A stretch of 64,000 bases of DNA, from the NCBI GenBank assembly GCA_963377175.1, contig CAUJNA010002890.1, positions 1,062,010 through 1,126,009 of the forward strand. The letters run 5' to 3'. The notes under the pieces were generated by a model. The model worked only from the letters and a program-made list of their open reading frames with translations. It was not told the origin of the DNA and did no database searches. How positions within the stretch are numbered: the stretch's first letter is position 1; the number at the start of each line of letters is the position of its first letter. The stretch comes from Effrenium voratum. Taxonomy: Eukaryota; Sar; Dinophyceae; Suessiales; Symbiodiniaceae. Shown here one piece after another: positions 15,795-37,096 of this stretch. A program made the position numbers and the translations under genes.

Positions 15795-16142
15795 AAAAAA
15801 TGGTAAAAGTAGGGGGCCTGGGGGGTGGTCTGTTGATGGTCCCCTGTTATGGTTTTTATGTTCATCTCAAATCTGTGTTCCCCCTTATTCGTTTTGAAAA
15901 GAGGGTTTTTAGGGAGCTTATTTATCGTTTTCGTTAAGGTAATCATTTTGGTAATTGCCCCCCTTGTTCATTGTTGGGCTGGGGGCAAACATTTTTTTCA
16001 TTTGAAAGAGGTAGCCCTTTTAGTAGTTATCAAGTTCTGGGGTGTTGGTGGTGTATTTGTTTTGTTAGTATGTTTATCAATAATTTTCTTTTATAGGTTA
16101 AAAGTTCGCTATAATTATAACATATAAGATTTTACATGTTAT
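15795..16142 (+). repeat. Left terminal inverted repeat of the virus
   Basis: Starts AAAAAATGGTAAAAGTAGGG and matches the reverse complement of 36747-37096. By eye I count about 17 differences over roughly 345 aligned bases (about 5%). It ends around ACATGTTAT, just after the stop codon of the outermost viral gene (16163). Confidence 0.93.
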
Positions 16143-16162
16143 AATTATGGTTTAGTTATGAA

Positions 16163-16786
16163 TTACACAGGTTCATCAACCATTAGTTTAAGCCTTATGT
16201 TTTGTACTCCTTCAAAATTCATTCTACTTCTTGCATCTTCCATACGACTGTCTATTGTTTGATGCGCCACTCTCATTACATCAGCTATATTATCTATGGT
16301 TATATTATCTACAAAATCATCACTATGAAAATGAAAACTAAAAGTGTTAAAATGGTCGTCTTCATAATAATTGAAATGATGAAACCTTACAAACATATTT
16401 ACCTCAACTATTATAACTTCTCCATAACTGTTATCGGTTTCAATGCTATCTAACAAACAACCTAAGTTTTCATGTTCATTAAAAACTATATCTTCAATGC
16501 TTTTAATGCTTAAAGGTTTATTTCTTGAAATGTAATACTCAATTACGTGTCTCTTTATATCATCACCACCTACAACAGTTCGACGCTTTGTCTTTCTTTT
16601 TGTTTCTGTTCTGTTTATTTTATATTGTTGTTGTATTCTCTTTAATGTCTTAATATGATTATGTTTTATTTTCAAATACTCAGGTTCCCCTAATCTATAT
16701 GAAATGATACCTTTTAATACATCAACAGGTAAGCTAGCACAATTCTTAACCATAAAATTATTATCTGATATTTTACCCCCACTCAT
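16163..16786 (-). CDS. F-box-like small viral protein, left terminal gene
   Basis: A 207-aa protein of unknown function. Near residues 17-46 it has SLPVDVLKGIISYRLGEPEY then LKIKHNHIK, very similar to the start of the viral gene at 32167 (LPLDIKNLVLSYNLGD then LLKIKNNNII). The LP-x-D-(V/I) start recalls F-box or BC-box helices that recruit ubiquitin ligases; that role is inference. The middle is basic (KRKTKRR near 62-68). It points outwards to the left terminus, with its stop 20 bp from the terminal repeat. Its promoter region is nearly identical, in inverted orientation, to that of the gene at 36206, including the early-type motif. Confidence 0.75.
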   Translation of the reverse strand: MSGGKISDNNFMVKNCASLPVDVLKGIISYRLGEPEYLKIKHNHIKTLKRIQQQYKINRTETKRKTKRRTVVGGDDIKRHVIEYYISRNKPLSIKSIEDIVFNEHENLGCLLDSIETDNSYGEVIIVEVNMFVRFHHFNYYEDDHFNTFSFHFHSDDFVDNITIDNIADVMRVAHQTIDSRMEDARSRMNFEGVQNIRLKLMVDEPV

Positions 16787-16927
16787 TTTTCTCTTAATAT
16801 ATAAGGTTTTTTCTCTTTAAGTAGTTTTGGCTAGGGGTTGCTGGTCGGTTGGTCTGGGTTTCAGGTTTAATTTAAATGTCTTAACCTTCTTTTTAGATTA
16901 TAAAACAATGTTTAATCATATTATAAT
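16784..16927 (-). promoter_or_regulatory. Left copy of the subterminal inverted promoter module, early-type motif
   Basis: On the minus strand AAACTACTTAAAGA (16815-16828 on +) is followed by CCTTATATATTAAGAG and then ATG. The whole stretch matches 36066-36208 in inverted orientation with few differences, including CTGAAACCCAGACC further upstream. Confidence 0.75.
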
Positions 16928-17025
16928 TAAATATTATGAATAAACAAACATCATATTTCATAATTATTAATTGTATGAATTTCAAATTTGATAAAGTGCG
17001 TGAAAAAGACTGTTTCAGGTGTAGT

Positions 17026-17216
17026 CCCACGAACACGGGACTCCCAGTCCCACGAACACGGGACCCCCAGTCCCACGAACACGGGACCCCCAGTCCCACG
17101 AACACGGGACCCCCAGTCCCACGAACACGGGACCCCCAGTCCCACGAACACGGGACCCCCAGACCCCCAGTCCCACGAACACGGGACCCCCAGTCCCACG
17201 AACACGGGACGCCTTG
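17026..17216. repeat. GC-rich 23-bp tandem repeat inside the virus
   Basis: Eight copies of CCCACGAACACGGGAC followed by CCCCAGT-type spacers, at 23-bp spacing except one 30-bp step before copy seven. Two copies of CCCCTCCATTTGGGACCC follow (to about 17263). The block is strikingly GC-rich for this AT-rich element. It lies between the left terminal gene and the methyltransferase, where no gene is present. Confidence 0.92.
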
Positions 17217-17269
17217 ACCCCTCCATTTGGGACCCTTGGCCCCTCCATTTGGGACCCCTCACCCATTGC

Positions 17270-17899
17270 TCATATCCGAGGTTGAGAAGACATGAAATAA
17301 ACAAATATCTCGCTTATCAAATCAGTAGGAATTTTATATAGGTCATCTTGTTTATGTTTAATGTATCCCTCACCCCAATCTGATTTCTTTCCCGATGGCA
17401 ACCGTTGAGCAGTTTCTAAATGTTTTCCATTCCTAATTTTCCCACAATCCCCTTTGCATAATGGTCTGGGTTTCCATGTTTCAATGTTTGACCACAACCT
17501 CGTTCGCTTCCTGTAGTTCATGCCATATTTACAATAATCCACATCATAGTATTTCAACCCACTCATGAAGGGTTGTTCCTTTAATAATCCTGTTTGAGGA
17601 TTTTCCACAACCCACCATGTAGGTTTAAAGTAGTCAATGATTTCAAGGGTTTTCAAAACGATACTATTCGCATAATCTATCTTTCTAACCCCAGTAGTTT
17701 TAGCACGACTGTATTCGGTGCATGGAGGAGATGCCCAAATCACATCAAAATCACTAACCCCGAACTGTTTATAATCCCAACTCAAAATATCAGTATTTAT
17801 ATTTGCATTTTTCAAATCAAGGGAAATAACACTATAACCTAAATCACGAGCGACCTGACCAACACTACCTGTCCCACTAAACATCTCTAATAATTTCAT
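17270..17899 (-). CDS. C5 cytosine-specific DNA methyltransferase (short, phage-like)
   Basis: The 209-aa protein transfers a methyl group from S-adenosylmethionine to cytosine C5 in DNA. Motif I (FSGTGSVG, residues 7-14), the catalytic PPC motif IV (58-60, in WASPPCTEYS), ENP motif VI (99-101) and RKRTRLW (motif VIII-like, 130-136) appear in order. The protein is far shorter than typical bacterial enzymes (300-400 aa), with little room for a target-recognition domain, like compact phage versions. It follows the GIY-YIG gene on the same strand with a 15-bp gap. It may protect viral DNA or modify host chromatin; inference only. Confidence 0.92.
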   Translation of the reverse strand: MKLLEMFSGTGSVGQVARDLGYSVISLDLKNANINTDILSWDYKQFGVSDFDVIWASPPCTEYSRAKTTGVRKIDYANSIVLKTLEIIDYFKPTWWVVENPQTGLLKEQPFMSGLKYYDVDYCKYGMNYRKRTRLWSNIETWKPRPLCKGDCGKIRNGKHLETAQRLPSGKKSDWGEGYIKHKQDDLYKIPTDLISEIFVYFMSSQPRI

Positions 17900-17914
17900 T
17901 CTTATTAGAGATAT

Positions 17915-18583
17915 TTAGATATTAATATTTTCATTAACTGTCGATTGCTTACATTTGTTTGTCTTTTGGTGTCGTTTCAATCCATCCTTTCTCACACAAC
18001 AACCGCATAAATCACAGTTGGTTGTGTCCATGGACTTTTGGCTAATTTCTTGTTTTTTGTCTTCATATCGCTTTCGGCTTTTTTCTTTTAGTTGCTCCAC
18101 ATTGTTTTCATAGTATCCTTTGTAATATTGTTTATACCAGTCCTTATGTTTCTCCTTATATTGGTCTGTCATTTCTTTAATTCGTTCTTTATTGTTTAAG
18201 TAATACCCATGTACTTGTGATTTTATATTGTCTTTGTTTTCTTCTATCCATTCGTTTCTCGTTCTACCTGCTATTTGCTTATTAAGTGTTGGCTTATACT
18301 GTCTTATCAGTTCTCCTTCTCGCTTTCGTAATTGTTCTACATTTTCACATGGATATTCTTCTAGTAATTCTATGTAAAACTTGTCTTCTCCTATATCGGT
18401 CATTTTCTGATAAATCTTGTATCTGCTTCGTGAAGCCATTTGTAATGATTGTTTATGTTTGTAAAACCTTTTTGATAATGGTTGCGTAGTGCTTCCAATG
18501 TATATGTCATCATCTTCATTATTTCTTATGCAATAGATTTTGCCATTGCAGTAGTTTTTCTCCTTTTTTCCTTTACCTTCCAT
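17915..18583 (-). CDS. GIY-YIG endonuclease with C-terminal zinc finger
   Basis: The N-terminal region has KIYCIRN (15-21) and DIYIGSTTQPLSKRF (26-40), the GIY-YIG core with the following arginine. Charged helices follow (VEQLRKREGEL, then a lysine-rich segment). The C-terminal segment CDLCGCCVRKDGLKRHQKTN ending in C is a C2H2/C2HC-type finger (about 190-212). Such nucleases make single- or double-strand cuts and occur in large DNA viruses, phages and mobile introns. Here it stands between the methyltransferase and the polymerase, all on the minus strand, so a role in replication, recombination or host DNA cutting is possible. Confidence 0.9.
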   Translation of the reverse strand: MEGKGKKEKNYCNGKIYCIRNNEDDDIYIGSTTQPLSKRFYKHKQSLQMASRSRYKIYQKMTDIGEDKFYIELLEEYPCENVEQLRKREGELIRQYKPTLNKQIAGRTRNEWIEENKDNIKSQVHGYYLNNKERIKEMTDQYKEKHKDWYKQYYKGYYENNVEQLKEKSRKRYEDKKQEISQKSMDTTNCDLCGCCVRKDGLKRHQKTNKCKQSTVNENINI

Positions 18584-18610
18584 TTGCTACATGATTAACA
18601 TGACTTCTCT

Positions 18611-21600
18611 TTAGGACTTGTTCAAACTATAATGCCCGTATGGAAGGGAATAAAAGGCATCTTTATACCAGCGCTTATTTTCAAAATTACTCAAGCTCTG
18701 CTTAACTTGAGACATTGAGAATAATTGATGGTTGCGACTACGAATGAAATTGTATGTTATTTGATGCTTTTTGTTTTCATACAATGCTTGTTCATAACTT
18801 TGGTAAGTCAGTTCTTTCTTCACCTTATGTTTCACTACACCTTTTGATTTTTTATGTTCATCATCCTCACCATGTATTGCAAAAGCGTATGACTTGGGTT
18901 TGAGTGCTATGAATTTGGTAATTATCTTTGAAGAGCATTCATCTTTAAAATAACCGAGTTTTTTCTTATTTGTTTTGTCATGGCATGGATGTTCTACTGG
19001 ATAATCGCTAAAGTCCATATATTGGTTTAATTCTTTGAAGTCCTTGTAGATGTCCTCAGTGAATGTTTGAATTACATAACTATCAGTATCTGTATATACT
19101 AATTTGATATTTTCATTGTATTTTTTCTTAAGGACATCATAATAAAACTGATACATATGCAATTTACTTAAATCTAAAATCGTCATTCCTAAAAAGATTG
19201 GTTTATCCAGTTTCAGTTTTGCTTTAGTTTTCTCAACTCCTACGATATTTTCATTAATAATAAATCTATTTTTGAAAGTTGGATTATTCACGCACTTTTC
19301 ATATCTAACTTCGTTATCAACCAGTTCAAAGTCCATATGGTTTCGCTTGTCTTCCATAGTTTTACCATATACAGAATTATTCATCAGCTTATAGAGTTCT
19401 TTCTCAAAATCGCTTTTGGCTTCTTTCCTTTTACCAGTGTTGAAGTCAATCCACGGTTTCAACCATGCCCTCTGTTGAAATTTTATTATCCTATGGACTT
19501 TACCCATTTTCATTCCCATTTTCAAATAATACTGTAAAGTCTTAATATGAACCACATATTTTTCTTTATCCTTTAGATTTAATATTAACTTACTTGTTTT
19601 CTCGTCCTTGGGACTTTTACCATCATAATATATTTTGAAGACTTGCTTTTGATAATCGGAAAGCATATTCACATTTACATTCATTATTTCAGGCGCTAGT
19701 GGATAGTCAGAGTGGAAGTCGTGCAATGTTTCGGGATATTCCAAATCAACTTCCATAATATAACCGAACTCATCGTTTTCATTCCATTTTTCAACAATGG
19801 GAGTTTTCTTTGCCCACTTGATATTTTTTAGCGGTAACTTCTGGGACATTGCCAAACCATACAAGTTATTAGCATCCAAGTAACTAATATAATTTGATGG
19901 CTTGTTCTCATCATATGCTTCCCCCATATACTTATTATTTGCCACTGCTAATTTATGACTTACCTGACACATACCACCTCTCATTCCCTTTTCAACCATC
20001 TCAAACATTTCTTGGTCATGCAATTGTTCTATTTCAACACCAGTTTTTAGAAGCATCGCGTCCCATGCGAAATTTGGCAATGTGTAATAATGAGCGGGGT
20101 CTAAACCGTAGTATTCCATACACAAGTCTCTAAAGTTTTCAAATACATCGGTCAGTAGTAAAACATCAGTTCTTAAATACAAGTCGTGATACTGCCCGAG
20201 TGTTCTAATCCCGAAGTGCTTCCATACTTTCAGTGCCCTTTCATAATCTTTATCACTTACATGTTCTTCACTCAATTTACTGTAAAACGCTTCTTTCGGT
20301 GGTAAAGCCCTTTCCTTAAATCTTTCAAAATCATCAAAGTAGTCATAGGGATAAATACCCTTATCAGTCAATAAATCCAAATCTTCATCGGTTTTAACAT
20401 ACGGGTTTCTAACGCTATATCTGAAATTGTTCTTCCAATTCTCACGCTTTTTATCATCCTCATATTTACTCAACTTCACCAACTTATCCAACGAAGACGA
20501 TAAGAAACTGAAACTGTCCTTGAAACAAAGATTTTTAAAACCAAAGGTTATAAACTTTTCGCTGTTCTGAGCGATACATTCTATTTTAGAATTCTTGTTC
20601 AGTTCGTGAGCCTTGTTGATGATTAAGTGGGCATCGTAGTTTTTAAGATTATGAAGAAACACAGGGATTTTATAATATCTCATACTAAATCGTAGATTGC
20701 AGTCCTCGTGGGCGCATCCTCTATACTGCCCCGTAAAGTGGCAATGGTCCCAACACTTCTTTTCTCCTTCCTCAAATTTGTTTCCACAAATGAAGCAGTT
20801 AGTGGCATTATTGAAGTCCTCCCAGTCCTTCTCGGTTTCAATACGGTCTTTGTCCTCCTTCATTTTCTCCAAAACTTCCTCTCTGACTTTATTGATTTTC
20901 TCAACAAATTTATCCATACAATCCTGACCTCTGTATAAGTAAGGCTCACTACTTCCGGTTATAGCATTGACTACATTAATCATAAAACCACACGGACGAT
21001 GATTTTGATATGATGTAGTTTTAGCTTTTGCCGATTTGCTTTTAACATCAATTGGCACAGTTAAACATTCAAAGTCGGCATAGATTACGAATGGAGCTTT
21101 AAGTTTCTTGAAATGGTTTTTGAATTCTATTGTTTCACCTGCTTTTGGCATTTCTATTTTTTGACCCTCAACTGCTAGACATCCCTGTTCTTCGTGTTTC
21201 TTTAAAAGTTCTTCGGTCTTGAAACCATGTGAGCAGGTTCTACAGTGATACTTCTTCGCCTTCATCTTGTTAGTCTGACTACTCATTAACTTATCATAAT
21301 TTTTGATATAAGCGTAATGGGATTTAACATCATCAGTCAATTTAATCAAATCGATTTTGTGTTGTGCTTGTGGGTTGTTGCTTCTTTTGTATAATAAAAT
21401 AGTTTTACTATTCGTATCGGGGTTTATGTAATAAACATTGACCGATATGTGTTTGTTCTGTTCTTCAAATAGTTCAATCTCATCATTACCTACTGGAAAG
21501 TCTATTCCGTCCCATTTGATAAATTTGTCATCTACATATTTCTTATAATGATACATGTCGCAGGGATGGTCTTTTTTGTATAACTCATAAAATCCACATT

Positions 21601-22363
21601 GAACGGAATATTTAAAACATAAGTCGTCCTCATTTTTAATATTAATACAAGCCTTTTTGTTTGCCACCCAGTCGGGCAATGGAATAAAGGATGAACCACG
21701 GGTAGGATTGTACCTATCATAACTGATGACTAACTTTTCAACTTGACCAAGAACCAATCCCGACTGAATGTATTCGGTTATTTCAATTTGTGTCTCAATG
21801 TCGTGCCCAATGTTGTTTAAGACGGTGTTCAACTCATCGGGATTATGAATATTGTATCTTCTGCTTCTTAACCGCCTTTGAATAAGTTCGTTGGCGGGAT
21901 TTTTGAATGATAAATCGGTTTCCACGATTATTTTCATGTTCGGGTTTCTGTTCAGGAATTCGGCCAGTCGTTGCTTCTGGTATTTTAAGTAGGATAAACC
22001 TTTCATCCCCTTTAATCTTATATCACTTACCGAGTAGGTGTTGGCGTATCCCTTGAACGCTTGTTGCTCGTCTGTGATTTTGGACTTGAAACGCTTGACA
22101 TAATCCTGTAAGGGTCTGCCTCTCGTTAGTTTTAGATAATTAGCACCTTTCATTAAAAGGCCATGCTTTCTATATCCGTCACTCCTCGCCACTTCCTTGA
22201 GTTTCGTGTTCAATACGTTTGAAACTGGTTTGTTCTTATCATATCTGTAGGTCTTATCACCTATTTTGAGTTTTTGTGTTTGCCTCCCTTCTTTTTGTAT
22301 TAGTTCGCCTTGTTGGCTGTTTAAAATGAAATCTATGATTTTATTTTCTGACATGGTAACCAT
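18611..22363 (-). CDS. polB: Protein-primed-type family B DNA polymerase (PolB)
   Basis: The 1250-aa polymerase would copy the linear viral genome from its terminal repeats. A C2H2-like finger (CRTC...H...C, about 373-395) precedes Exo I (IYADFE, about 427). Next comes a CFICG...WDHCHFTGQYRG...C..CN module (about 523-556) resembling endonuclease VII/HNH zinc sites found in Polinton polymerases. Exo II (NLKNYDAH, about 572) and Exo III (YLRTDVLLLTDVFE, about 729) follow. Polymerase motif A is SYLDANNLYGLAM, motif B LMNNSVYGKTM and motif C YTDTDSYV (about 1090). All catalytic acidic residues are present and no break is seen. The 280-residue N-terminal region may hold the terminal-protein function; inference. 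An early-type promoter motif lies just upstream. Confidence 0.97.
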   Translation of the reverse strand: MVTMSENKIIDFILNSQQGELIQKEGRQTQKLKIGDKTYRYDKNKPVSNVLNTKLKEVARSDGYRKHGLLMKGANYLKLTRGRPLQDYVKRFKSKITDEQQAFKGYANTYSVSDIRLKGMKGLSYLKYQKQRLAEFLNRNPNMKIIVETDLSFKNPANELIQRRLRSRRYNIHNPDELNTVLNNIGHDIETQIEITEYIQSGLVLGQVEKLVISYDRYNPTRGSSFIPLPDWVANKKACINIKNEDDLCFKYSVQCGFYELYKKDHPCDMYHYKKYVDDKFIKWDGIDFPVGNDEIELFEEQNKHISVNVYYINPDTNSKTILLYKRSNNPQAQHKIDLIKLTDDVKSHYAYIKNYDKLMSSQTNKMKAKKYHCRTCSHGFKTEELLKKHEEQGCLAVEGQKIEMPKAGETIEFKNHFKKLKAPFVIYADFECLTVPIDVKSKSAKAKTTSYQNHRPCGFMINVVNAITGSSEPYLYRGQDCMDKFVEKINKVREEVLEKMKEDKDRIETEKDWEDFNNATNCFICGNKFEEGEKKCWDHCHFTGQYRGCAHEDCNLRFSMRYYKIPVFLHNLKNYDAHLIINKAHELNKNSKIECIAQNSEKFITFGFKNLCFKDSFSFLSSSLDKLVKLSKYEDDKKRENWKNNFRYSVRNPYVKTDEDLDLLTDKGIYPYDYFDDFERFKERALPPKEAFYSKLSEEHVSDKDYERALKVWKHFGIRTLGQYHDLYLRTDVLLLTDVFENFRDLCMEYYGLDPAHYYTLPNFAWDAMLLKTGVEIEQLHDQEMFEMVEKGMRGGMCQVSHKLAVANNKYMGEAYDENKPSNYISYLDANNLYGLAMSQKLPLKNIKWAKKTPIVEKWNENDEFGYIMEVDLEYPETLHDFHSDYPLAPEIMNVNVNMLSDYQKQVFKIYYDGKSPKDEKTSKLILNLKDKEKYVVHIKTLQYYLKMGMKMGKVHRIIKFQQRAWLKPWIDFNTGKRKEAKSDFEKELYKLMNNSVYGKTMEDKRNHMDFELVDNEVRYEKCVNNPTFKNRFIINENIVGVEKTKAKLKLDKPIFLGMTILDLSKLHMYQFYYDVLKKKYNENIKLVYTDTDSYVIQTFTEDIYKDFKELNQYMDFSDYPVEHPCHDKTNKKKLGYFKDECSSKIITKFIALKPKSYAFAIHGEDDEHKKSKGVVKHKVKKELTYQSYEQALYENKKHQITYNFIRSRNHQLFSMSQVKQSLSNFENKRWYKDAFYSLPYGHYSLNKS

Positions 22364-22511: not shown

Positions 22512-22835
22512 TCATAATGTGCATTGTCGCGAAGCTTGCGAACAAATTTTAGATTTCTTGTGTTTAGATAAATTTGATTTGCTTGATATCGTCCTTCCGC
22601 AGTCCTCACAAGTGTAAGACTGTTTTAGGTTATTGTTGTAGTAATTCTGGTGGTAGTTCTTCTGGTCGTCCCTCCATCTCACGGGTTGCTCATTGCCATC
22701 GCTCGAAGTCTGGTTCTGTTCGCTTATCATCTGTAAGACTAAGTCGTTTTCTGCTTTCATCAGTTCAACCATCATATCAAATTCATCATTCGTTATTCTC
22801 TGTTTACTATTACCGTTAATAAAAATTCCTGTCAT
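22512..22835 (-). CDS. Small C2H2 zinc-finger protein
   Basis: A 107-aa protein with one classic C2H2 finger near the C-terminus (CEDCGRTISSKSNLSKHKKS then KIC, about 77-99). The N-terminal half is acidic and glutamine/asparagine-rich. The gene has its own early-type promoter motif (22857-22870 on +), directly after the stop of the next upstream gene. A DNA-binding regulator of viral transcription is a reasonable inference. Confidence 0.75.
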   Translation of the reverse strand: MTGIFINGNSKQRITNDEFDMMVELMKAENDLVLQMISEQNQTSSDGNEQPVRWRDDQKNYHQNYYNNNLKQSYTCEDCGRTISSKSNLSKHKKSKICSQASRQCTL

Positions 22836-23750: not shown

Positions 23751-23770
23751 ATTAAATATTATATATTTTA

Positions 23771-25621: not shown

Positions 25622-26476
25622 TTAAATAATATCGCTTTTTACAAATAATAATGACAGGGATACATTTACCCCATTTAAATTAATTTCATTTCCTAATGAA
25701 TTACTAATCCAAAAATCTAATTGTTTAAAGCTTCTATTTGATACATCCAAGTAATCCAGAGGGTTTAATTCCGAATCAAAGACAATTCCCGCGTGTGGTG
25801 CTGTGACTGGTACTTTCTTAACAACTGTGCTATCACCGGTTCTTAAATTTACTTGATTATAATTAGACAATTGAGAAGAATGAATATAAATATTTCTAAT
25901 GGGTTGAAGATTAACGAAACCAGAAACATAAGGATTATTATATTGATAAACTACCATTTGATAATTTCCTAAAACTTCATTAGCAGATTGCAAGTTATTA
26001 GCATCAAAAGTTCCATTCCATATATAATCCGCATATGTTAGTTTCATTTGTTCATCAGTTAACACAGCGAACTTTCTATCGGCATAGTTTGAATAAATTG
26101 TTATTTTATTAGTTTTAACACTGTAAGTAACTTCATAAGTATTTGAGAAATTAGTATTATCTACAACACCATTTATTTTTGACTTTAATTCTGTCGCTAG
26201 TTCTGTGCCAGTATATACTCCTTCGTCCAATTGTAACGCTAAATAATGGACATTTGTGTTATCTTCATCTGGAACTAGTGGAGAAGAATAAAAGTATAAT
26301 ATATTATTTAATCCTGACTGAATTGAATACCACGAGTTAGGTAATGTTACTTCGTGAATGTAGCAATGAACTCCATTGTCTGTTTGTAATGTTTCCGGCA
26401 ATTCAACTCTAAAATTTGATGATGAACCGCTAATTCTATGAGCACTGTCAATATAGACCTTCTTATATGTGAGCAT
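25622..26476 (-). CDS. Penton-like minor capsid protein
   Basis: A 284-aa protein starting KKVYIDSAHRISGSSSNFRV then ELPETL. This is the beginning typical of Polinton, PLV and virophage pentons (V-x-I-D-S...R...G-S-S-S-x-F), followed by the family's Y-I-H-E-V-T-L-P-N-S-W-Y strand. A later LDEGVYTGTELATELKSKI helix is also usual. The single jelly-roll protein would form pentameric vertices of the capsid. The frame is intact, unlike the major capsid gene that lies 1.1 kb away on the other strand. The start lies in an ATTAATTAATTGAG context. Confidence 0.8.
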   Translation of the reverse strand: MLTYKKVYIDSAHRISGSSSNFRVELPETLQTDNGVHCYIHEVTLPNSWYSIQSGLNNILYFYSSPLVPDEDNTNVHYLALQLDEGVYTGTELATELKSKINGVVDNTNFSNTYEVTYSVKTNKITIYSNYADRKFAVLTDEQMKLTYADYIWNGTFDANNLQSANEVLGNYQMVVYQYNNPYVSGFVNLQPIRNIYIHSSQLSNYNQVNLRTGDSTVVKKVPVTAPHAGIVFDSELNPLDYLDVSNRSFKQLDFWISNSLGNEINLNGVNVSLSLLFVKSDII

Positions 26477-26515: not shown

Positions 26516-27176
26516 ATGATTAATAATAAAAAGTTAATTTATGAAATGAAGCATGGGAAAATTAAACATTATCAACCTTATAAGAAAACAACTAAAATAA
26601 CTGATGTTATGAAGCAAACTGACAAAATATTAAATAGTTATTATCCTAATTCAAATTTAACTGATGCACAAGGCTTAAGTAGAGCATATGGCAATGGTAA
26701 CGGTTTTTATATTGATGGTGATAAAATGTATGTAAGCAGGAACATTTGGAAAAGGAACGTTTGGAGGTGCTGTTAATGACATTCTGGCAGATGTAGGACT
26801 TCCCTTTAAAATGACTAAATATTCACAACGATATAAAGACACATCAACAGCATTGGATGAAAACAATGAAGTTAAACATCTTATAACACATAGTCTCGGT
26901 TCAAGTGTAGGGGCACAGATAACAAAAGATTATCCTGAAAGAGAATTAACTCTAACCACTTATGGAGCGCCGTTTATATCACGAAGGTCTAAAATTACCG
27001 ATGATTACATTAATTTTAGAAGTATCTTAGACCCTGTCAGTATTGCTGACCGTGGTGCTATAACTGTTTATACTGGTTCATTAAATCCATATACTAACCA
27101 CGATTACATAACTGGATACGGAGACCAAGGTAAAGATGTTTCAAGAAGCAATGAACCGGTAAAGGAGATATTATAA
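26516..27176 (+). pseudogene. Class 3 lipase-like gene, frameshifted
   Basis: Two frames form one gene. The first (from 26516) has helices and an FYIDGDKMYV strand; the second (to 27176) has THSLGSSVGAQI, the serine nucleophile elbow of class 3 lipases. It then has SILDPVSIADRG (a D-P-V aspartate-like site) and NPYTNHDYITGYG (candidate histidine). One extra A at about 26735 shifts the frame; the first frame then meets TAA at 26774. The protein would act on lipid or ester substrates, for example during virion entry or egress. Programmed frameshifting is an alternative, but no slippery heptamer is evident. Confidence 0.75.
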
Positions 27177-27603: not shown

Positions 27604-28987
27604 ATGGAAACTTTTAGTGCTGAAGATATTCTAATTGACAACCTCTCATTTAAATTAAATAAAGGTGCAAGTTATATCAACGACCGTCGTTCTGTCTCGT
27701 TTTTTCCTTCTGGAAGTAATATCTACACCCCTTCATCTGGTCAACGTGTGTTGAAAATAGCTTTAAATGCTGAAGATAATACTTGGCTTGACCCGCAGAG
27801 TGTAATGGTTTATTTCACTGTTGAAAACACTGACCCGTCAGACAATAAACGCTTACGTCCTCTGTCTCCTGCTTATTCCTTTTTTAGAAGAGCAAGACTA
27901 ATTGCTGGTAATCAACTTGTTGAAGACATTGATTATTACAACCGAAATCATCACATGATGAGTTGCTTGATGTCAAAAGGAGCAAGAGACAATGAAGACG
28001 CCCAGAGTTTTGGTTATAGATATGATGATGATTTAAACACACGTCGTGCAGTTCCTGCATCGGGTCATATTGGTCCTGCATATGACGCTTACACAATTCC
28101 AGGCTTTAGAAGAAAAATGGTTGTCGGATTTAAACCGATGCTTGGTTTATTCAATCAATTTAAGTATATTCCGTTAAAAGCGTGTCCTCTTGTTTTAGAA
28201 CTTGAACTGGTTTCAAATTTTAGTGATTGTGTTGTTACAGTTGGTGGTACGAGGTTTCCACCGAGTGGCAACACAGACACAAGCCTTCATACAAATGAGC
28301 AGTTCTCAATTAGTAACGCATTCCTTCAAACTGATTTGGTAAGCTTGGACAACGACCTTCATAATAAATATGTTGCACACCTACTTGATGGGAAAGAATT
28401 ACCTATTACTTATAATACTTATATTTGTCAATCTAATCAAGTTCCTGATGGTTCGTCGTCAATTAACACTACTGTTGTTCGTTCAGTGTCTAAACTCGTT
28501 GCCGCGTTCATCAGTTTCAACAAAAGCGGAGTAGGCGATACTCACGTTATGAAAGAATACAACAATTTCTATCATCCTATGTATAACTTGAATTATCAAG
28601 ACAGTGGATACTACAATTCCGACCTTGATTTAGAATTTCAACTTCAATTAGGGTCAAAACTATATCCTGAGTATCCTTGCCGTTCATTAACACAAGCATT
28701 CTATTATTTACGAAAAGCATTAAATTTACCATTGTTCCATCAACACCATTTATCAATTGAATATTCGGCTTATCGTGTTGATAAGTTTATCTTTGCTATG
28801 GATTTCGAAAAGGTTCCCGATTAGTTCATATACTGGAATTAACACAAAAGCAGGGCAACAACTTTTAATTCGTGTGAAACCTATTGGAAGTATGGTAACA
28901 GCAAATATGCCAGATACAATATATATAACATTAGTATCAGAACAAATATTATCCATTAGAGACGCCGGAGTGCAGATTTTAGATTAA
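27604..28987 (+). pseudogene. Major capsid protein gene, frameshifted near the 3' end
   Basis: The 406-residue open part contains SVSFFPSGSNIYTPSSGQRV, then WLDPQSVMVYFTVEN, and YSFFRRARLIAGNQLVEDID then YYNR. These blocks fit the double-jelly-roll major capsid proteins of Polinton-like viruses. TAG at 28822 ends it after FAMDFEKVP. The other frame continues at once with SSYTGINTKAGQQLLIRVKP and ends IRDAGVQILD before TAA (28987), the usual C-terminal strands of such proteins. One extra C in the CCC at 28816-28818 explains the break. Full length would be about 460 residues. It follows a TATATAG late-type box. Confidence 0.85.
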
Positions 28988-29051: not shown

Positions 29052-31868
29052 ATGCCTTCAATAAATTTAACAAACTTTGAAAATGTTGTAGCGCACACAA
29101 TTAGCGAAATCAATTCTACAAGCGGGGTAACAAACATTAGAAACATATACGCTAATCAATCAGATATAATTGATTTACTCAACAATAAAGCAGACCAAGT
29201 AGATACTTACACAAAAGCACAGATTGACGCTAATTTTTATGATATAACTCAATCATACAATAAGACGGAAGTTAATGTATTATCAAATAATATTAGTTCA
29301 AATACATTTTTAATAGGTAATCTGACAATAACTTCAAATACAAATTTTAATAGCATCAGTTCCAATACACATTTAATAAGCAATGTAAATTCTACTACGA
29401 CAAGTAATTTTAATGATATTAGTTCCAATACACATTTAATAAATAATTTAAATTCTACTGTATCAACTAATTTTAATAATATTTCATCTAATACTAATTT
29501 AATTAATACAAATTTTAATAATATTTCATCTAATACTCATTTAATAGATAATTTGAATTCTACTATAACATCTAATTTTAATAATATTTCTTCTAATACA
29601 AATTTAATAAATAATTTAAATTCTACGGTATCAACTAATTTTAATAATATTTCATCAAATTCTCATTTAATATCTCAATTACAATCAGGTTCATTTGATA
29701 GTAATTTATATTACAATAAAATAACAACTAATAATTTATTATCAGATAAATTAAATACATCAATATTAAATAATACATTAATACATAATATAACAACAAC
29801 ATCGACTTTTAAAATAGCAAATTTTGGAAATTATAATAATTTTTATGAAATGTATAATAATTATTTTGATAGTTATATTTATGGAAATTTAAGTGGAGCA
29901 ACTATGTTTTTAAATCAAAGAGGTTTTGGAGATGTAGAAATTAATAATTCTTCAACTTTTCAAAATGATAAAATAATATTAAATCATAATACAACAATAT
30001 TATCTAATTTACAAGTATCTGGTTTATTTTCTTGTTCGTCTATTTTAGATATAGCAGGTTCTGATGCTAGATATGTTTTACAATCAGATGGATTAAGTGG
30101 ATTAATAACAGGAAATACAAATACAATTAATTCAATAATTACTACTAATAATTCACAGGATACATCATTAGGTCAAAAGTTAGATAAAATAGATACTAAC
30201 GCTCAATCAGTAGCAGGTGCTATTAATTTTAGTGATAATACAACTTTACACAGTAATTTAAATATGTTGACTACGGGAAGTATAATATGTAATAAGTTTA
30301 GTACTACACCTTCGCCTAATTTAGGTTTGCAAATGACTTTTCAAATGTTTAATAGAGAGTTCAATATTAATAGAGATGGCAGAATGTGGATGAGTAGCGC
30401 AGGTGGTCAATGGGAAACGCAAATAGGAGATGCTAATGTTGGACGTGTGTGGGTTAAGGATAGATTCGGTTTAGGTGCTGTTGGTGTTAATGGCTATGTT
30501 TTAAACTGTGCCGGAAAATCGAGATTTACTGATGCAGTTGATTTTATAGGAACTGACAAGGCAGTAAATCTTAACAATGGTTCATATTTGAATTTTAATA
30601 ATAATGGTTCAATACGAAGATATATGCCCAATACAATAGAAGGTTTATATATGTCTCATGATGATTTTGTAGCCATTAGTGTTGGTGATGTTACAAATGC
30701 TTCTAATCAATATATGATGTGTGATGGATTAGTGAATAAAACAATTTTTAGTAAACCTATTGATGTTTTAGGAAACATTTATACGAATGCTGATGTTAAT
30801 TGTGATAATATTAATATTGATACTGGTGGTAAATTAACAATTGATACAACTTGCGAATTATATAAATTCGTTAGCTCTTTTTCATCTTTTGATATGAGAA
30901 ATACTGATGCCAATTCTTCAATTAGGTTTGTCGTTGGAGACAGTTCCGTTCAGTCTAACATAGTCGGGGCAGTTAATATTACTAACGGATGGACTTTTAA
31001 CACAAGCACTGTTGATGTTATGGGCAATTTATTTGCTGACGATGTTTATATTAAAACCAATGGAGCATAAAGGAGTAATCATTTAGCACCTAATGGTGGT
31101 ACATTGGTAACTGTTGATACTAACTTGGCCATTCAAAATGCTTATCTAGCAACTAATACCATACAATCTTTTGATTTAACAACGGTTTCATTTTTGAATA
31201 ATATTTCAATGACAACAGGAACAGATATATTAATGGGAACAAGTGAAATATCAACTTACTATGATGGAACTAATTTATCCACAATTGATGTAATATTCAG
31301 AACGTCAAACACGGCGTTCAGAGTTTCAGATAGTTCAACTACACCTTCAGTTTTATTATCTATTGATAAGACATTTGGAACAACAGTAAATACTGGAAGT
31401 TTTACAAATAATGCCTCATCAACATTCAATGAAAATGTAACAGTTGCAGGAACGAAGAAATTGTTATGTAATACACTTGAACCATCAACAGGAACTAATA
31501 TAGACTTAACAGCAACGACAGTAACCATTAACGGAACGTTTGTTGATTCATCTGATTCGCGGTTGAAATATGACATAGACAATGTCAAATCTAACTGTAT
31601 GAATATTATTAAGAAATTTAAGCCAAAGAAGTTTAAGAGACACGATAGAAATGACGGGGGTAAAACTCATATAGGATATATCGCAGATGAAGTATTAAAA
31701 GCAATTCCTAAAGAGTTTGAAAATATTGTATGTAAAGATAAAGAGTATTTAGGATTGAATTATTTAGTTTTACCCGTGTTGGTTCATAAAGCAGTATTAG
31801 AATTAAATGATAAAATAGATAAACTTGAAAAAGAAGTTAAGGAATTGAAAAAAGAAAAATCTAAATAA
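29052..31868 (+). pseudogene. Fibre/tailspike-like protein with S74 chaperone, in-frame stop
   Basis: A 672-residue open part is followed in the same frame by 266 more residues; only TAA at 31068-31070 separates them. The N-terminal part is built of repeats of the type NFNNISSNTHLINNLNSTV (about residues 75-215), suited to a trimeric coiled or beta-helical shaft. The C-terminal part has SSDSRLKYDIDNVK, then THIGYIADEVLKAIP, and ends in a heptad-like lysine/glutamate coil. This is the S74 intramolecular chaperone (auto-cleaving) domain of phage endosialidases and related fibres. It would bind host cells; the stop may be a mutation, or read through. A TATATA box stands just before the ATG. Confidence 0.8.
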
Positions 31869-31877
31869 TAATATATA

Positions 31878-32166: not shown

Positions 32167-32646
32167 TTAATTGATGACTTTAATAGTTATTTTTTTCACT
32201 TGTAATGAAATAAAATTAACCACATTGTCCCTATACACTAAATTAGTTTTATAAAGGTCTTTATTAAGAAAATAATAAATATCAAATAAATTATTTGATG
32301 TTAAAGTACGATTACGAAGATGATTAAAAAAAGTAAATGAGGTAGATGTAACAAATATATCATATTCAATTAATAATTTTAATGGTTTATGTTTTTGATG
32401 TAATTTATCTAACTCACTTAAGTTAAAAATATATGATATGCCGTTTTTGATAATATTTTTCATAATGATATTATCAATTTCAAAATACTGTGAATTCTTT
32501 AATTTGTAAGACTTATACACTGGTTTAAATTTACTAATATAATTTTTAATAATATTATTATTTTTTATTTTTAATAATCTAACATCACCTAAATTATAAG
32601 ATAATACAAGGTTTTTAATGTCTAATGGTAAATCATAAAATATCAT
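32167..32646 (-). CDS. F-box-like small viral protein
   Basis: A 159-aa protein starting MIFYDLPLDIKNLVLSYNLG then LLKIKNNNIIKNYI, clearly related to the start of the left terminal gene product at 16163. The rest is hydrophobic-aromatic and asparagine-rich. Unlike its relatives it has no AAACTACTTAAAGA motif; its ATG follows AAATATATT. Function unknown; the F-box resemblance is weak without a profile search. Confidence 0.65.
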   Translation of the reverse strand: MIFYDLPLDIKNLVLSYNLGDVRLLKIKNNNIIKNYISKFKPVYKSYKLKNSQYFEIDNIIMKNIIKNGISYIFNLSELDKLHQKHKPLKLLIEYDIFVTSTSFTFFNHLRNRTLTSNNLFDIYYFLNKDLYKTNLVYRDNVVNFISLQVKKITIKVIN

Positions 32647-32661
32647 AATATATTTAAATCT

Positions 32662-33416
32662 TTATTTTATTTTAAATGCTTTTTCAAATCTAACATAAAA
32701 CATATTATTAACATCTTTGGAATTCATATTAACATAAAAGAAGGAGTAGGGCTTATCATCTACCGCTTTATGATACATATTTAACAGTTGCTCTTTATCA
32801 ACGATGGCGGAGTTTTCCTCAATGAATGACATTAACTCTGATACATTCTTTAACTTGAAGATATACAACGAACTAGAATTCAACCTAATGATTGGAGCAA
32901 GGACACGATATTTTTGAACACTTAAGCAAAAACTAATGGCGTCGTGTCTGCCTCTCGTTGCCAGTCCATGAATAACTTACTATATCTAACAAATTTAGGG
33001 TCGTCTGCAAAATCATCAACAATGATTAAAATTGAATGTAGTTTCTTCATCTTCTGTTCTTTCATATAATGAATTATCTTTCTTTGTGTGTTAATTATTT
33101 CTTCTAGTTCTTCAGGTTGGTAGGTGTCATAATATAACTTTTCTTTTTCATCATCAACCTTCATATTATCTTTTTGATATTTCTTGACTTCAACGAAGGT
33201 AGGGTCATTATGAACCGACGGGCTAAAAATGAATATACGGGCGAAGCAGTCCCTATAAACATTTAGGATAAGGTTTTGAATTAAAACTGTTTTGCCACCC
33301 GTTGATGAAGCAACAACAATTGAGCGAAAAGGTAGTTTTGGTACATGTTCATATTTAGATTGTTTGAAATCGTAATCAGTTATATTTATTGGTTTTATTA
33401 TTGGAACATCAGACAT
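32662..33416 (-). pseudogene. A32/FtsK-HerA-type packaging ATPase, frameshifted
   Basis: The first frame (33416 to 32922) has VVASSTGGKT, a Walker A motif (about 35-44), and ILIIVDDFADD, a Walker B (about 128-138). It ends at TAA shortly after MDWQ. Another frame carries on at once with RGRHDAISF, then SVQKYRVLAPIIRLN and the C-terminal frame that ends at 32662. The R-G-R-H and S-x-Q-K-Y words are the sensor region of these genome-packaging motors. A duplicated GA near 32940-32945 would explain the shift. The motor would pump viral DNA into capsids. A separate short frame (32883-32662) is the C-terminal part of this gene, not a gene of its own. Confidence 0.88.
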
Positions 33417-33468
33417 AATAAAATAATATTAAAGTTATTTAGAAAATATTTTATATTTATTATTTTAT

Positions 33469-33651
33469 ATGAATAGAAGTTATTCAGATTATATTGATAT
33501 AATAGATAAAGTAGAAAATATAGAACAAGTAATACTAACTGATAATAGATTTAAAAAAGTATGCTATTTTGTTTTAGAATTAATTAAGTTTGTGATACAA
33601 TATATTAAAAATATAAATATTAATATAGATGGGGAGAAAGAAAAAGAATAA
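33469..33651 (+). CDS. Short hydrophobic/helical protein, uncertain
   Basis: A 60-aa frame with IDKVENIEQVILTDNRFKKV then a helix (YFVLELIKFVIQYIKNI), which could be a membrane or amphipathic segment. It follows TTTTATATG and overlaps the start of the next gene by 23 bp. It may be real or chance in AT-rich DNA. Confidence 0.45.
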   Translation: MNRSYSDYIDIIDKVENIEQVILTDNRFKKVCYFVLELIKFVIQYIKNININIDGEKEKE

Positions 33652-33988
33652 GACTGAACCAGTTGTTTCTTCAACTGATGAAGAAAAAGAAGAAATTGTT
33701 AAAGAAACATCAGTTATTGAGTTTGCTTGTCCAATGTGTAAAAAAATCTTAGAAATGAAAAATGAATTAGAAATACAAAAGAAAGGACACTGTAAATGTT
33801 CGTGTATTCCGACAAGTTTCAAAATAAGTAGAAATGATAAGAAAATGAATATTGATAAAACTAAAGACAGTATCAACTTAGAAACAGATGTTCATAATAT
33901 TGCTATTCGCTTTGGGAGGGGAGTTACTCCATCAGATAATGGTAATAAGGAAACTCAGGAAACTGTTAAACAAATAATGAAAAATTAG
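33629..33988 (+). CDS. Small zinc-ribbon-like protein
   Basis: A 119-aa protein starting MGRKKKNK, a basic tail. ACPMCKKI then HCKCSC (about residues 34-58) give two CxxC-type pairs, a possible zinc ribbon. The C-terminal half is polar. The start follows AATATTAATATAG, a late-type box. Function unknown. Confidence 0.65.
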   Translation: MGRKKKNKTEPVVSSTDEEKEEIVKETSVIEFACPMCKKILEMKNELEIQKKGHCKCSCIPTSFKISRNDKKMNIDKTKDSINLETDVHNIAIRFGRGVTPSDNGNKETQETVKQIMKN

Positions 33989-34058
33989 TATTTAAAGAGT
34001 AGATTTAACATAATTGCAACATTTAGTTTTAAAAGTTTAGTTTTATAATTTAGTATAT

Positions 34059-34358
34059 ATGGAGGAACATTTAGCGAACATTGACAGTAGTTTAGAGTTG
34101 TTGTTTCCAAGATTAGAAAAAGTGTTGGAGCAAAATGAAAACATACTGAAAATCTTAAAGAGCTTGAATATTAAACCTACATATAATAACAATAACAGTT
34201 ACCAAGCAAAAGAAGTAGATAGAGACAGTAGCGAATACAAAAATAAACGAACCATTTATGTTAAAAAACTGAATGAAAAAGTCATAAAAGAACCTAAACA
34301 ATCAAGTCTGGATTACTATCAAGTCAAGTATAAAGAAGACACCAATAAATACGTTTAA
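34059..34358 (+). CDS. Small coiled-coil protein, unknown
   Basis: A 99-aa protein with an N-terminal leucine-rich helix (LELLFPRLEKVLEQNENI then LKILKSL) likely to oligomerise. The C-terminal half is basic and tyrosine-rich. The ATG follows TAGTATAT. The gene ends tail-to-tail with the integrase gene, overlapping it by 4 bp. Confidence 0.65.
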   Translation: MEEHLANIDSSLELLFPRLEKVLEQNENILKILKSLNIKPTYNNNNSYQAKEVDRDSSEYKNKRTIYVKKLNEKVIKEPKQSSLDYYQVKYKEDTNKYV

Positions 34359-35281
34359 TCATTAACTAACAAAATTTCGTGTCTCAAAAGCGGTTTGTTT
34401 ATTCCTGCTACTTTGTAAGTTTTATTACCCATAATATCATATTCAATTTTATCGATATTGAATATTTTATTAGACCATTTAGAGTTATACTCCTTTCTGT
34501 CGGTGTAATTACCCCTTTTCTTTTGGAACACTTTTACCTTGTCGTTCTCCTCTATTTTGGGATACTTTCTTTTGTTTTTTTCTCGTAGTTTAAGATTGAC
34601 CTTTACATTTATTTCATTGTCGTCCTTGTGTGCATCGGTCGGTGTCATCCTTGTTGATGAGTGTGATGTGCTGTTATACTGTTTCAATGCCGGCGTTAGG
34701 GCATCGGTCCATTTCATGTTGTTAAACCTAACTCTATCGTGAATTTTGTTTTTCATCGTTCTAATAAAACGCTCGGCCACATTTGCGTGGGTCTTCGTGA
34801 CGATGTGGTTTATTCCTTCACTGTTGAAGAAATCCTGAACTTGATTTTTAGTTGCAAACGCTCCGTCGTCATCAGAATACACGGACATCGGATAACCCAT
34901 CTTTTTAAAGCTTGTTCTCAACGCCTTCAAAACGTGCTCTCCGTCTCTTTCCTCCATCGGTATTACATCTGCTAATTTACTGAAGATGTCAATCACGACT
35001 AAAGCATACTGTGGAACGTTCTTGTCTTTTGCTAAAGGTGACATATGCATTATGTCTATTTGATATTCATATCGTGCGAATGGAGCGGTATAGGAATTAG
35101 TACCTCTATAATTTTTGATTTGTTTATTTGGTTGTTTCTTTAAGAAAGACTTTACATCGTCTAATGTTATTGTTGGGTCTTCTTCCTTTGCCTTCTTGTG
35201 TGTCGCTTGTGTGCTTCCGAAACCCTCGTCTAAGTCGTAATAGATGTTGCTGATTATTTGGTCTTTTGTTAATCTCGCCAT
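34355..35281 (-). CDS. Retroviral-type (rve) integrase
   Basis: A 308-aa integrase that would join the viral ends to host DNA. The catalytic core shows YEYQIDIMHM (D76), VYSDDDGAF (D138 likely) and HANVAERFIR (E170), the D,D,E triad with FSKLADVIPM between, as in Polinton and retrotransposon integrases. The N-terminal 60 residues hold no clear HHCC zinc site; they have a DDVKSFLKKQP helix typical of Polinton integrases. The C-terminus has an SH3-like DKVKVFQKKR...YNSKWSNKIFNI region. The frame is intact. It agrees with the inverted repeats and the target duplication. Confidence 0.95.
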   Translation of the reverse strand: MARLTKDQIISNIYYDLDEGFGSTQATHKKAKEEDPTITLDDVKSFLKKQPNKQIKNYRGTNSYTAPFARYEYQIDIMHMSPLAKDKNVPQYALVVIDIFSKLADVIPMEERDGEHVLKALRTSFKKMGYPMSVYSDDDGAFATKNQVQDFFNSEGINHIVTKTHANVAERFIRTMKNKIHDRVRFNNMKWTDALTPALKQYNSTSHSSTRMTPTDAHKDDNEINVKVNLKLREKNKRKYPKIEENDKVKVFQKKRGNYTDRKEYNSKWSNKIFNIDKIEYDIMGNKTYKVAGINKPLLRHEILLVND

Positions 35282-35342
35282 TATATTAAATTGTTAGAAA
35301 ATATTTTTTCAATATAAAGCCCCACCCCTTAACATAAAATAC

Positions 35343-35384
35343 AAACTACTTAAAGAAAAATGGATATAATATAGTAAGAAAAAA
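35343..35384 (+). promoter_or_regulatory. Early-type promoter of the gene at 35385
   Basis: AAACTACTTAAAGAAAAATG then GATATAATATAGTAAG precede the ATG. An upstream C-rich block (GCCCCACCCC, near 35318) echoes the other early-type promoters. Confidence 0.7.
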
Positions 35385-36041
35385 ATGACACTGTTTAATT
35401 ATGATAAATGTCCTTGTAAAAATAAAAAATGTAAGTCTGTCGTGGCACTAGCTAATATTTTACCTGTTAATGTTTGTAATCTTATAGGTGGTTATATTAA
35501 ACCAAGATGTTTTGATTGTTGGTATTTGAGAGATGAAGAAGAGCATTTTATGAGTGATAAACACATTCCTGAAGAAGGTCTGGAAAAAGCAGAGCTTCAG
35601 TTAAAGATTATTGAACAAATGCTAAATAACGATATGACTTGTCTAACAGTAATCCCTTTTGTTAACAAACAATACAGAAAAAGAATTGACAGAATATTTA
35701 ATAAACAAGAGGTTAAAGAAAGATTTAAAACAAGAAAAATGTATTATCAAGGATTAAAATCATATTGTAAGAATAATCAAGAAGAAGTTACTGTACTTTT
35801 AAAAAATTGTCTTAAAATTGAAGAATTAAAGTTTATCAAAAATAGTGATTTGTTCTTTCCTAACCTAAACAATTGGTGGTCATATAGAAATAACAATTAT
35901 TATATGAGAAACATATTAAGCGACTTAATTGAAATTTACACAGACCAATTAATAAAAGGATACGAGCATTATTGTTGTGAGTATAGTATGAGTTGTTATA
36001 GTGGTTGTATCGCTGGTGAGATTGAATACGGGTCAAATTAA
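35385..36041 (+). CDS. Cysteine-rich F-box-like protein
   Basis: A 218-aa protein. Residues about 9-16 (CPCKNKKC) and 46-50 (CFDCW) give cysteine pairs, with ILPVNVCNLIGGYIK between them. This LPxxVxxLIxxY pattern recurs in the genes at 16163, 32167 and 36206. The CFDCWYLRDEEEH part resembles CYDCCHFKKEN in the neighbouring gene at 36206. The rest is helical and basic. An early-type promoter suggests a host-interaction or regulatory role; F-box activity is inference. Confidence 0.7.
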   Translation: MTLFNYDKCPCKNKKCKSVVALANILPVNVCNLIGGYIKPRCFDCWYLRDEEEHFMSDKHIPEEGLEKAELQLKIIEQMLNNDMTCLTVIPFVNKQYRKRIDRIFNKQEVKERFKTRKMYYQGLKSYCKNNQEEVTVLLKNCLKIEELKFIKNSDLFFPNLNNWWSYRNNNYYMRNILSDLIEIYTDQLIKGYEHYCCEYSMSCYSGCIAGEIEYGSN

Positions 36042-36065
36042 CTTTTGTTTATTAATATTGTTATC

Positions 36066-36208
36066 TTATAATATGATTAAACATTGATTTATAATCTAAA
36101 AAGAAGGTTAAGACATTTAAATTAAACCTGAAACCCAGACCACCGACCAGCAACCCCCTAGCCAAAACTACTTAAAGAAATATTACCTTATATATTAAGA
36201 GAAAAATG
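36066..36208 (+). promoter_or_regulatory. Right copy of the subterminal inverted promoter module, early-type motif
   Basis: AAACTACTTAAAGAAA (36165-36180) then CCTTATATATTAAGAG and ATG. The stretch from TTATAATATGATTAAACATT to the ATG mirrors 16784-16927, showing only a few substitutions and single-base gaps. Confidence 0.75.
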
Positions 36209-36733
36209 AACGGTGATGGAATCAATAATTATATCGATAAAAAATGCTATGATTGTTGTCACTTCAAAAAAGAAAATATGGAATTGTATAAATTGAGTTT
36301 ACCTAATGAAATAGTGAATAATATTATTAATTATTCAATGGATGGTGAAGAAGACATATGTAAAAATTGTAAAACTTGGAGAGATAATCAATTTTTAATC
36401 AAATGTCTGTTGGGAATAAAAAGAATACATAATAGAAATGTAGAAGATGATATTTTAATATTTCTAACTGTAAATAAAATACCACCTTACGATTATGTTA
36501 AACAGTTTCTTAAAATCAGTAAGAAAAAATATGACATGATTTATGATATATTATGGATGTTGGGTTATAGTCAAGAGAAAGGAGAAGATGTTAAAGAAAA
36601 TATCAAATTATTTATTGAAAGTAAAAAGTTTAATGTTCAGAATACAGTGAGAGATGTTAATATTATTTTTAAAATGATGTATGAAAGAAGTAAGACAAAC
36701 CAATTAGATTATTATCCTGAACTGAAATTATAA
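36206..36733 (+). CDS. Cysteine-rich F-box-like protein, right terminal gene
   Basis: A 175-aa protein. CYDCCHFKKENMELYKLSLP is followed by NEIVNNIINYSMDGEEDICK then NCKTW, combining cysteine pairs with the LPxxIxxII motif of its relatives. It points outwards to the right terminus and stops 13 bp from the terminal repeat, the mirror image of the gene at 16163. Promoters of the two are almost the same while the proteins differ strongly in length and sequence. Function unknown; a role in modifying the host is inference. Confidence 0.72.
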   Translation: MNGDGINNYIDKKCYDCCHFKKENMELYKLSLPNEIVNNIINYSMDGEEDICKNCKTWRDNQFLIKCLLGIKRIHNRNVEDDILIFLTVNKIPPYDYVKQFLKISKKKYDMIYDILWMLGYSQEKGEDVKENIKLFIESKKFNVQNTVRDVNIIFKMMYERSKTNQLDYYPELKL

Positions 36734-36746
36734 TCATAATATAATA

Positions 36747-37096
36747 ATAACATGTAAAATCTTATATGTTATAATTATACTGAACTTTTAACCTATAAAT
36801 GAAAATTAGTGAGAAAAACACTAACAAAACAAATACACCACCAACACCCCAGAACTTGATAACTACTAAAAGGGTTAACTCTTTCAAATGAAAAAAATGT
36901 TTGCCCCCAGCCCAACAATGAACAAGGGGGACAATTTACCCAAATGATTACCTTAACGAAAACGATAAATAAGCTCCCTAAAAACCCTCTTTTAAAAACG
37001 AATAAGGGGGAACACAGATTTGAGATGAACATAAAAACCAGAACAGGCAACCCTCAACAGACCACCCCCCAGGCCCCCTACTTTTACCATTTTTTT
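36747..37096 (-). repeat. Right terminal inverted repeat of the virus
   Basis: Reverse complement of 15795-16142, with about 17 differences. It ends TACTTTTACCATTTTTTT directly against the 11-G run. Confidence 0.93.

Follow-up and report, generated by a model that had tools for sequence, protein, structure and literature searches.

A partly decayed Polinton-type provirus of a peridinin dinoflagellate, with a probable integration preference for G:C tracts

The 64-kb stretch of Effrenium voratum contig CAUJNA010002890.1 analysed here (the window) carries an integrated viral element in the block 15795-37096. The block is about 21 kb long and of low GC content: in 1-kb bins the GC falls from ~50% outside to 20-37% inside, except that one bin, which contains a GC-rich repeat of 23 bp, reaches 44%. 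The element is bounded by terminal inverted repeats (TIRs) of 354/355 bp that are 95% identical, with inverted ends at 15795 and 37095/6, and each end adjoins a G-run in the host DNA. The evidence makes it very probable that the insert is one copy, in part decayed, of a Polinton-type provirus that is present in many copies in a peridinin dinoflagellate and integrates into G:C tracts. The repeats and tracts at its ends (no strand assigned) are as follows.

15785-15794: host G-run at the left junction (target tract)
15795-16148: left TIR, starting A6-TGG
16783-16948: inner inverted repeat, left copy (~166 bp, 92%)
17023-17210: tandem array of a GC-rich 23-bp repeat, with 8 exact-core units
36044-36209: inner inverted repeat, right copy (~166 bp, 92%)
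36741-37095: right TIR, last base 37095 or 37096 owing to a T-run
37097-37107: host G-run at the right junction, same strand as the left; duplication length ambiguous in this copy

Host and gene content

Peridinin-chlorophyll protein (PCP) is a hallmark of peridinin dinoflagellates. The host assembly (1,155,904,702 bases) contains 97 matches to PCP, the best at 2e-76 against solved PCP chains, and 14 control genomes contain none. The host is a peridinin dinoflagellate; the first-pass annotation, made from the letters of the sequence, had called the genome dinoflagellate-like. Within the window there were no matches to one 21-base pattern for spliced-leader relics, and no tRNA genes or Rfam families at gathering scores.

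A Pfam profile scan covered 20 window proteins, small open reading frames (ORFs) being outside the scan, and matches were reported up to E = 1. Those over the cut-off were rve, Pox_A32, Peptidase_S74, DNA_methylase and GIY-YIG. The genes for replication, integration and DNA modification are listed first.

17270-17899, minus strand: C5 cytosine DNA methyltransferase, 209 amino acids (aa) (PF00145, 6.1e-6; phrog_757, 2.5e-18)
17915-18583, minus strand: GIY-YIG nuclease (PF01541, 7.3e-9)
18611-22363, minus strand: putative protein-primed PolB (pPolB), 1250 aa, with a candidate vOTU pair Cys249/His349, an internal Endonuclease VII HNH, and exonuclease and polymerase motifs
22512-22835, minus strand: small C2H2 zinc-finger protein (PF00096, 2.6e-5; 24.9 bits, narrowly missing the cut-off of 25.2)
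34355-35281, minus strand: RVE (retroviral-type) integrase, 308 aa, open frame (PF00665, 2.8e-9)

The integrase also matches solved retroviral integrases weakly (best E 0.0022). No polymerase model in Pfam matched the 1250-aa protein up to E = 1, its sole match being Endonuclease VII (7.2e-5, narrowly below the cut-off); PF03175 is present on several of its homologues. In an alignment of 28 sequences (the window protein and 27 picked from 120 listed homologues, 38-85% identical), the PolB motifs, the exonuclease DxE and the Cys249/His349 pair are invariant in all 28, and the HNH is kept in 27 at four positions lost by the remaining sequence. The polymerase call of the first-pass annotation is borne out by these motifs and by the PF03175 homologues. 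Polinton polymerases have the order TP-vOTU-Exo-Palm and can contain inserted homing nucleases (PMC11071308; this and the other PMC sources are cited from partial text), and Cys249/His349 may be the vOTU protease pair of polinton pPolBs.

The virion-type genes are as follows.

25622-26476, minus strand: minor capsid protein (mCP, penton) candidate, 284 aa, open frame
26516-27176, plus strand: lipase-like gene, broken into two ORFs (26516-26776 and 26811-27176)
27604-28824, plus strand: major capsid protein (MCP) candidate, 406 aa, early frame end
29052-31868, plus strand: fibre with C-terminal S74 domain (PF13884, 9e-11), in-frame stop at 31068-31070
32922-33416, minus strand: A32-type packaging ATPase, 164 aa, shortened (PF04665, 1.4e-6)

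The window copy is partly decayed, the capsid, fibre, lipase and ATPase frames being broken, while those of PolB, the integrase, the mCP, the methylase and the GIY-YIG nuclease are open. The first-pass annotation had described the virus as complete, which holds for the two termini and not for intactness. The MCP frame stops about 54 aa early compared with relatives of 460 aa. In a survey of capsid copies (102 scored out of 4213 candidates), open frames reached at least 463 in 93 of the 102, the window's 412 was the shortest and one other copy had an internal stop; the capsid break is thus not general among those scored. The ATPase is 164 aa long compared with 256 aa in a relative, so that the packaging ATPase of the first-pass annotation stands as a Pox_A32 protein over the cut-off with a shortened frame.

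Both capsid genes had also been called. Homologues number 483 for the MCP candidate and 96 for the mCP candidate. The profile of the former found no capsid match in PDB, and that of the latter matches the PBCV-1 protein P1v1 weakly (E 0.051); the two may be the double jelly-roll MCP and single jelly-roll mCP expected of a Maverick-Polinton. The integrase, methyltransferase, nuclease and S74 fibre were confirmed, the fibre with its in-frame stop. The 'class 3 lipase' was not: neither half of the window gene has a Pfam match up to E = 1, and in a relative with an open frame all alpha/beta-hydrolase matches are below the cut-off (Lipase_3, E 0.031). No match to the cysteine maturation protease, which nearly all Polintons have, was obtained in the 20 scanned proteins, a scan that remote homologues can escape; the S74 chaperone domain was the only match with 'Peptidase' in its Pfam name. 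A 561-aa protein (P0111) combines an MCP-like N-terminal part with a Peptidase_S74 domain and may be an assembly or deletion join.

Copies of the element and their junctions with host DNA

A search of one host assembly with a 28-mer of the TIR tip, allowing up to 3 mismatches, gave 258 matches, and the reversed control pattern gave none; further copies with the same terminal repeat, as the first-pass annotation had suggested seeking, are therefore present. The best 37 of 3558 PolB candidates were scored, a choice biased towards intact copies, and are full-length or nearly so, 96-100% identical and without internal stops. Between the window PolB and 19 other copies dS is 0.15-0.21 and dN/dS 0.096-0.125, as expected if purifying selection held while the copies diverged. 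Two protein clusters, P0001 (297 members, 97%) and P0121 (268 members, 96%), fit a high copy number; some of their members may come from other genomes. TIR divergence was considered as an age clock and rejected: the arms within one element are 95.2% identical in the window copy and 96.0% in C1442, compared with 99.4-99.7% in three others. The left arms of the window copy and C1442 are 98% alike despite these lower within-element values, so the arm differences seem to be inherited.

In a first reading of 30 TIR loci the host sequence at the element ends was G- or C-rich. The junction sample comprises 98 of 100 listed TIR-tip places, all with 0 mismatches, from the total of 258. Pairing by position gave 29 two-ended sets, the other 40 places being single ends; when flanks that agree over bases 9-45 from the end are counted once, 88 distinct flanks remain. 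GGGG or CCCC lies within 6 bp of the element end at 84 of the 98 junctions and in 78 of the 88 distinct flanks. The background frequency of 6-mers with such a run is 4.4% in the window's host part (1828/41,889) and 3.7% in the flanks of the TIR loci 0.2-1.5 kb away (1437/38,820). In the same 88 flanks the number with a run declines with distance, from 58 at 6 bp to 25 at 12 bp and 10-19 at 18-60 bp. Six of the ten misses have a G or C run of at least 6 within the 12 bases shown, and many of the target tracts are long (at least 10 G or C) or lie inside G-rich repeats.

The tract is on the same strand on both sides of the element in 27 of the 29 two-ended sets (12 G/G and 15 C/C as read along the contig, the latter including C3034 with CCCGG), and two sets are discordant (C128b and C3111). 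The 5-bp flanks are identical in 16 of the 29, and seven of these sets agree at a length of 5 bp alone when all lengths from 3 to 14 are compared. The seven resolved duplications are AGGGG, TGGGG, CGGGG, CCCCT (twice), CCCCA and CCCGG; read on the G strand, six have the form NGGGG, the one non-G base preceding the G4 on its 5' side each time (two-sided 0.03). A G-run belonging to the TIR was rejected, as inverted ends would give opposite bases on the two sides. Because the tracts are on the same strand and the 5-bp flanks are identical, the G/C run is the duplicated target.

Several observations weigh against integration into G:C tracts. Thirteen of the 29 sets, the window copy included, lack identical 5-bp flanks; these are mostly beside pure tracts, where the length of the A/T-run is ambiguous. 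Two of the resolved sets, C675 and C3127, count as 5-bp duplications only with the element fixed at A6/T6. Only two of eight further mates sought were recovered, C675 (concordant, among the 29) and C779, where the tracts are opposite and the two TIR tips differ, so that it may not be one element. Opposite tracts also occur at C128b and C3111, and there is no G4/C4 at C3034 or in the L149/L154 flank. C37 and C1001, with ends separated by 66 and 46 kb, might each be more than one element. Three pairs of sets (C128a/b, C935/C3033 and C3101/C3299) have common right flanks and different left flanks, suggesting mis-joins or recombination between copies. The flanks are also locally tract-rich, as the 10-19 of 88 at 18-60 bp indicate. 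A search for an empty site with the window's left flank gave 2973 candidates, and none was found among the 40 that were scored, the matches besides the site itself being confined to a stretch of ~100 bp inside the flank.

The right flank of C1420 (L093) reaches an apparent second TIR tip within ~14-15 bp, and an A-run of this kind is also seen at C1535 (L097); a single tract may have received two insertions.

Target choice and classification

We consider it probable that the element is a Polinton-type virus whose DDE integrase selects NGGGG sites within G:C tracts for insertion, as a dispersed safe-haven strategy. In the proposed cycle the linear genome would be copied by the pPolB, putatively by protein priming, and the RVE integrase would join the A6-TGG ends to host DNA through a staggered cut of 5 bp. 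The preferred target would be a run of at least 4 G (or C), because of which the duplicated target would mostly be NGGGG on the G strand. Recognition of the tract would be by the integrase or its intasome and not by a tethering host factor, and virions would presumably form.

A possible alternative, which we regard with some doubt, is that the integrase is indifferent to sequence and is brought to these sites by a host poly(G)-binding protein or by G-quadruplex or R-loop structure. The many tracts that are long or embedded in G-rich repeats are in its favour. Isolated sites are also used, however: C945 and C1162 each have one G4/C4 and no second such run in the 19 bases around, and this counts against a need for G-quadruplexes. 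The position of the odd base, 5' of the G4 in all six resolved NGGGG duplications (two of which need the A6/T6 fixing), likewise speaks against this alternative.

It is unlikely that the element is simply an ordinary Polinton or Polinton-like virus (PLV) already known from dinoflagellates, with nothing new. Related elements have been described: the figure legend of PMC12721341 includes a 21.2-kb dinoflagellate polinton from S. kawagutii, and PMC10120064 describes a 'Dino group' of MCPs and counts 2,535 MCPs in Polarella. Nowhere in its main text, however, do the terms target site, TSD (target-site duplication) or insertion site occur, and no target preference appears in the available portions of PMC12220804 and PMC8547959. 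The last, a study of mavirus-like EMALEs and the one among those consulted that looked for a preference, gave no evidence of sequence-specific integration in the part available. No report of G-tract targeting by such elements was found in the literature on target sites, with subscription papers mostly outside the search, which is not proof of absence. In cryptophyte PLVs a low-complexity GAGGG duplication was judged spurious (PMC12220804). What seems new is the probable G-tract integration preference, the gene set itself being mostly published.

An IMG/VR metagenome contig of 17.4 kb (3300028392_002905; L021/L022) has all the shared genes in open frames, with identities of 53% for PolB, 56% for the integrase, 56% for the ATPase, 37% for the MCP, 36% for the mCP, 41% for the lipase and 39% for the GIY-YIG nuclease. 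It also encodes an S74-domain fibre and has a near-identical mCP-lipase-MCP-fibre-ATPase order. It differs in having the GIY-YIG gene between lipase and MCP and the polymerase on the other side, in showing no match to the window methylase or subterminal genes at E 1e-3, and in the absence of detected TIRs in what may be a partial contig. Its MCP matches Capsid_N weakly (E 0.028). Since the contig carries most of the core gene set, that set is shared and not a one-off, and a chimera of unrelated parts, which the first-pass annotation had raised, is excluded by the seven genes that match it. Two scans of the viral-contig collection for the MCP were empty; they are insensitive, since L022 itself encodes one at 37%. 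A more distant contig, L023 (IMGVR_UViG_3300007522_001028), has a PolB at 38%, a T4-gp36-like/S74 fibre and a phospholipase A2-like protein.

The combination of pPolB and RVE is the Polinton signature (PMC4642659). Like Maverick-Polintons (Polintoviricetes), the element has long TIRs, a putative pPolB, a retroviral-type integrase, an A32 ATPase, candidate capsid-type genes and a target duplication within the 5-6 bp reported for mavirus and Mavericks (PMC8547959), identical in 16 sets, resolved in seven and ambiguous in the window copy; unlike them, it has no protease match and its target is a G:C tract. The HNH within its PolB has counterparts in the homing nucleases inserted in polinton pPolBs (PMC11071308). 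The PLVs of PMC4642659, which include the M. neglectum element with pPolB, RVE and a PLV-type MCP, are without the protease, and genes for GIY-YIG nucleases, lipases and Dam/Dcm-type methylases occur in various of them; an S74 protein is reported for mavirus (PMC3671162); the view in the first-pass annotation that the gene combination and the S74 fibre are unusual for such elements is not sustained. Its identification of an integrated Polinton-type virus is supported by the low GC, the TIRs and the gene set. By its pPolB and RVE sequences the element would be classed as Polinton-type; its MCP may belong with those of either PLVs or Polintons. No virophage S3 helicase matched in the 20 scanned proteins, no search against virophage references having been made. 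The Oxyrrhis marina PLV (PMC12721341) is likewise an endogenous low-GC dinoflagellate element with broken frames, but has a tyrosine recombinase, a helicase-pPolB fusion and, in the text available, no TSDs detected. The EMALEs of PMC8547959 are also TIR-flanked integrated elements in a protist genome, but their TSDs are mostly 3-5 bp. With this element the dinoflagellate Polinton group gains a member that is well sampled and has a relative in a metagenome.

It is very improbable that insertion was random and that survival was limited to copies in G-tracts, on the assumption that these are neutral DNA: tracts are above background at 18-60 bp in the flanks too, but regional selection would not yield 78 of 88 within 6 bp compared with 10-19 of 88 from 18 bp. 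Equally remote is the reading of the G-runs as element sequence or as an error of sequencing or assembly, since, error-prone as homopolymers and repeats are and with three pairs of sets having one common flank only, the tracts are on the same strand in 27 of 29 sets and the identical 5-bp flanks vary in their fifth base and lie in different host sequence.

A lineage with a readable target would help in studying how DDE integrases select their sites. It would also tell where proviruses of this family sit in the dinoflagellate genome and allow junctions to be located in other assemblies. In Breviolum, Mavericks are reported to be enriched at the boundaries of dinoTADs, the chromatin domains of dinoflagellates (PMC11071213); G-tract choice, if true, could explain this crowding, provided that the boundaries are tract-rich, which is conjecture.

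Subterminal genes and neighbouring repeats

The element has four accessory genes.

16163-16786, minus strand: subterminal accessory gene, earlier called F-box-like, without Pfam support
32167-32646, minus strand: accessory gene, earlier called F-box-like
35385-36041, plus strand: subterminal accessory gene
36206-36733, plus strand: subterminal accessory gene, the commoner one beside TIRs of other copies

The first-pass description of repeated F-box-like genes did not survive: no F-box match was obtained up to E = 1, and in a set of 24 proteins one pair of the four genes is detectably alike (E 5e-5 or 0.09, depending on direction). A homologue of 16163-16786 or 36206-36733 lies directly inside the TIR in all 30 TIR loci (L024-L053, with ~1.85 kb of element each), two of which are the window's own ends. 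Further inward the loci vary, with another accessory gene or with methylase, GIY-YIG or integrase pieces, and the exact core of the 23-bp repeat is found only at the window's left end. The copies appear to have swapped subterminal cassettes, possibly by way of the inner inverted repeat.

Repeats were also noted in the host DNA of the window. Short G-rich inverted units (CACACCCC...GGGGTGTG) adjoin the insertion at 37097-37380, and some of them hold a GGTAAAAGT-like string similar to the TIR tip. A near-perfect palindrome with 101-nt arms (95%) follows at 37419-37631, ~320 bp beyond the right end. Further away are a 148-bp tandem unit in 4 copies (90%) at 44568-45155, a C-rich minisatellite at 51020-51907, a 334-bp (GT)n tract (100%) at 52866-53199, a 189-bp tandem unit in 4.2 copies (98%) at 60225-61023 and a TG-rich array at 63376-63859.

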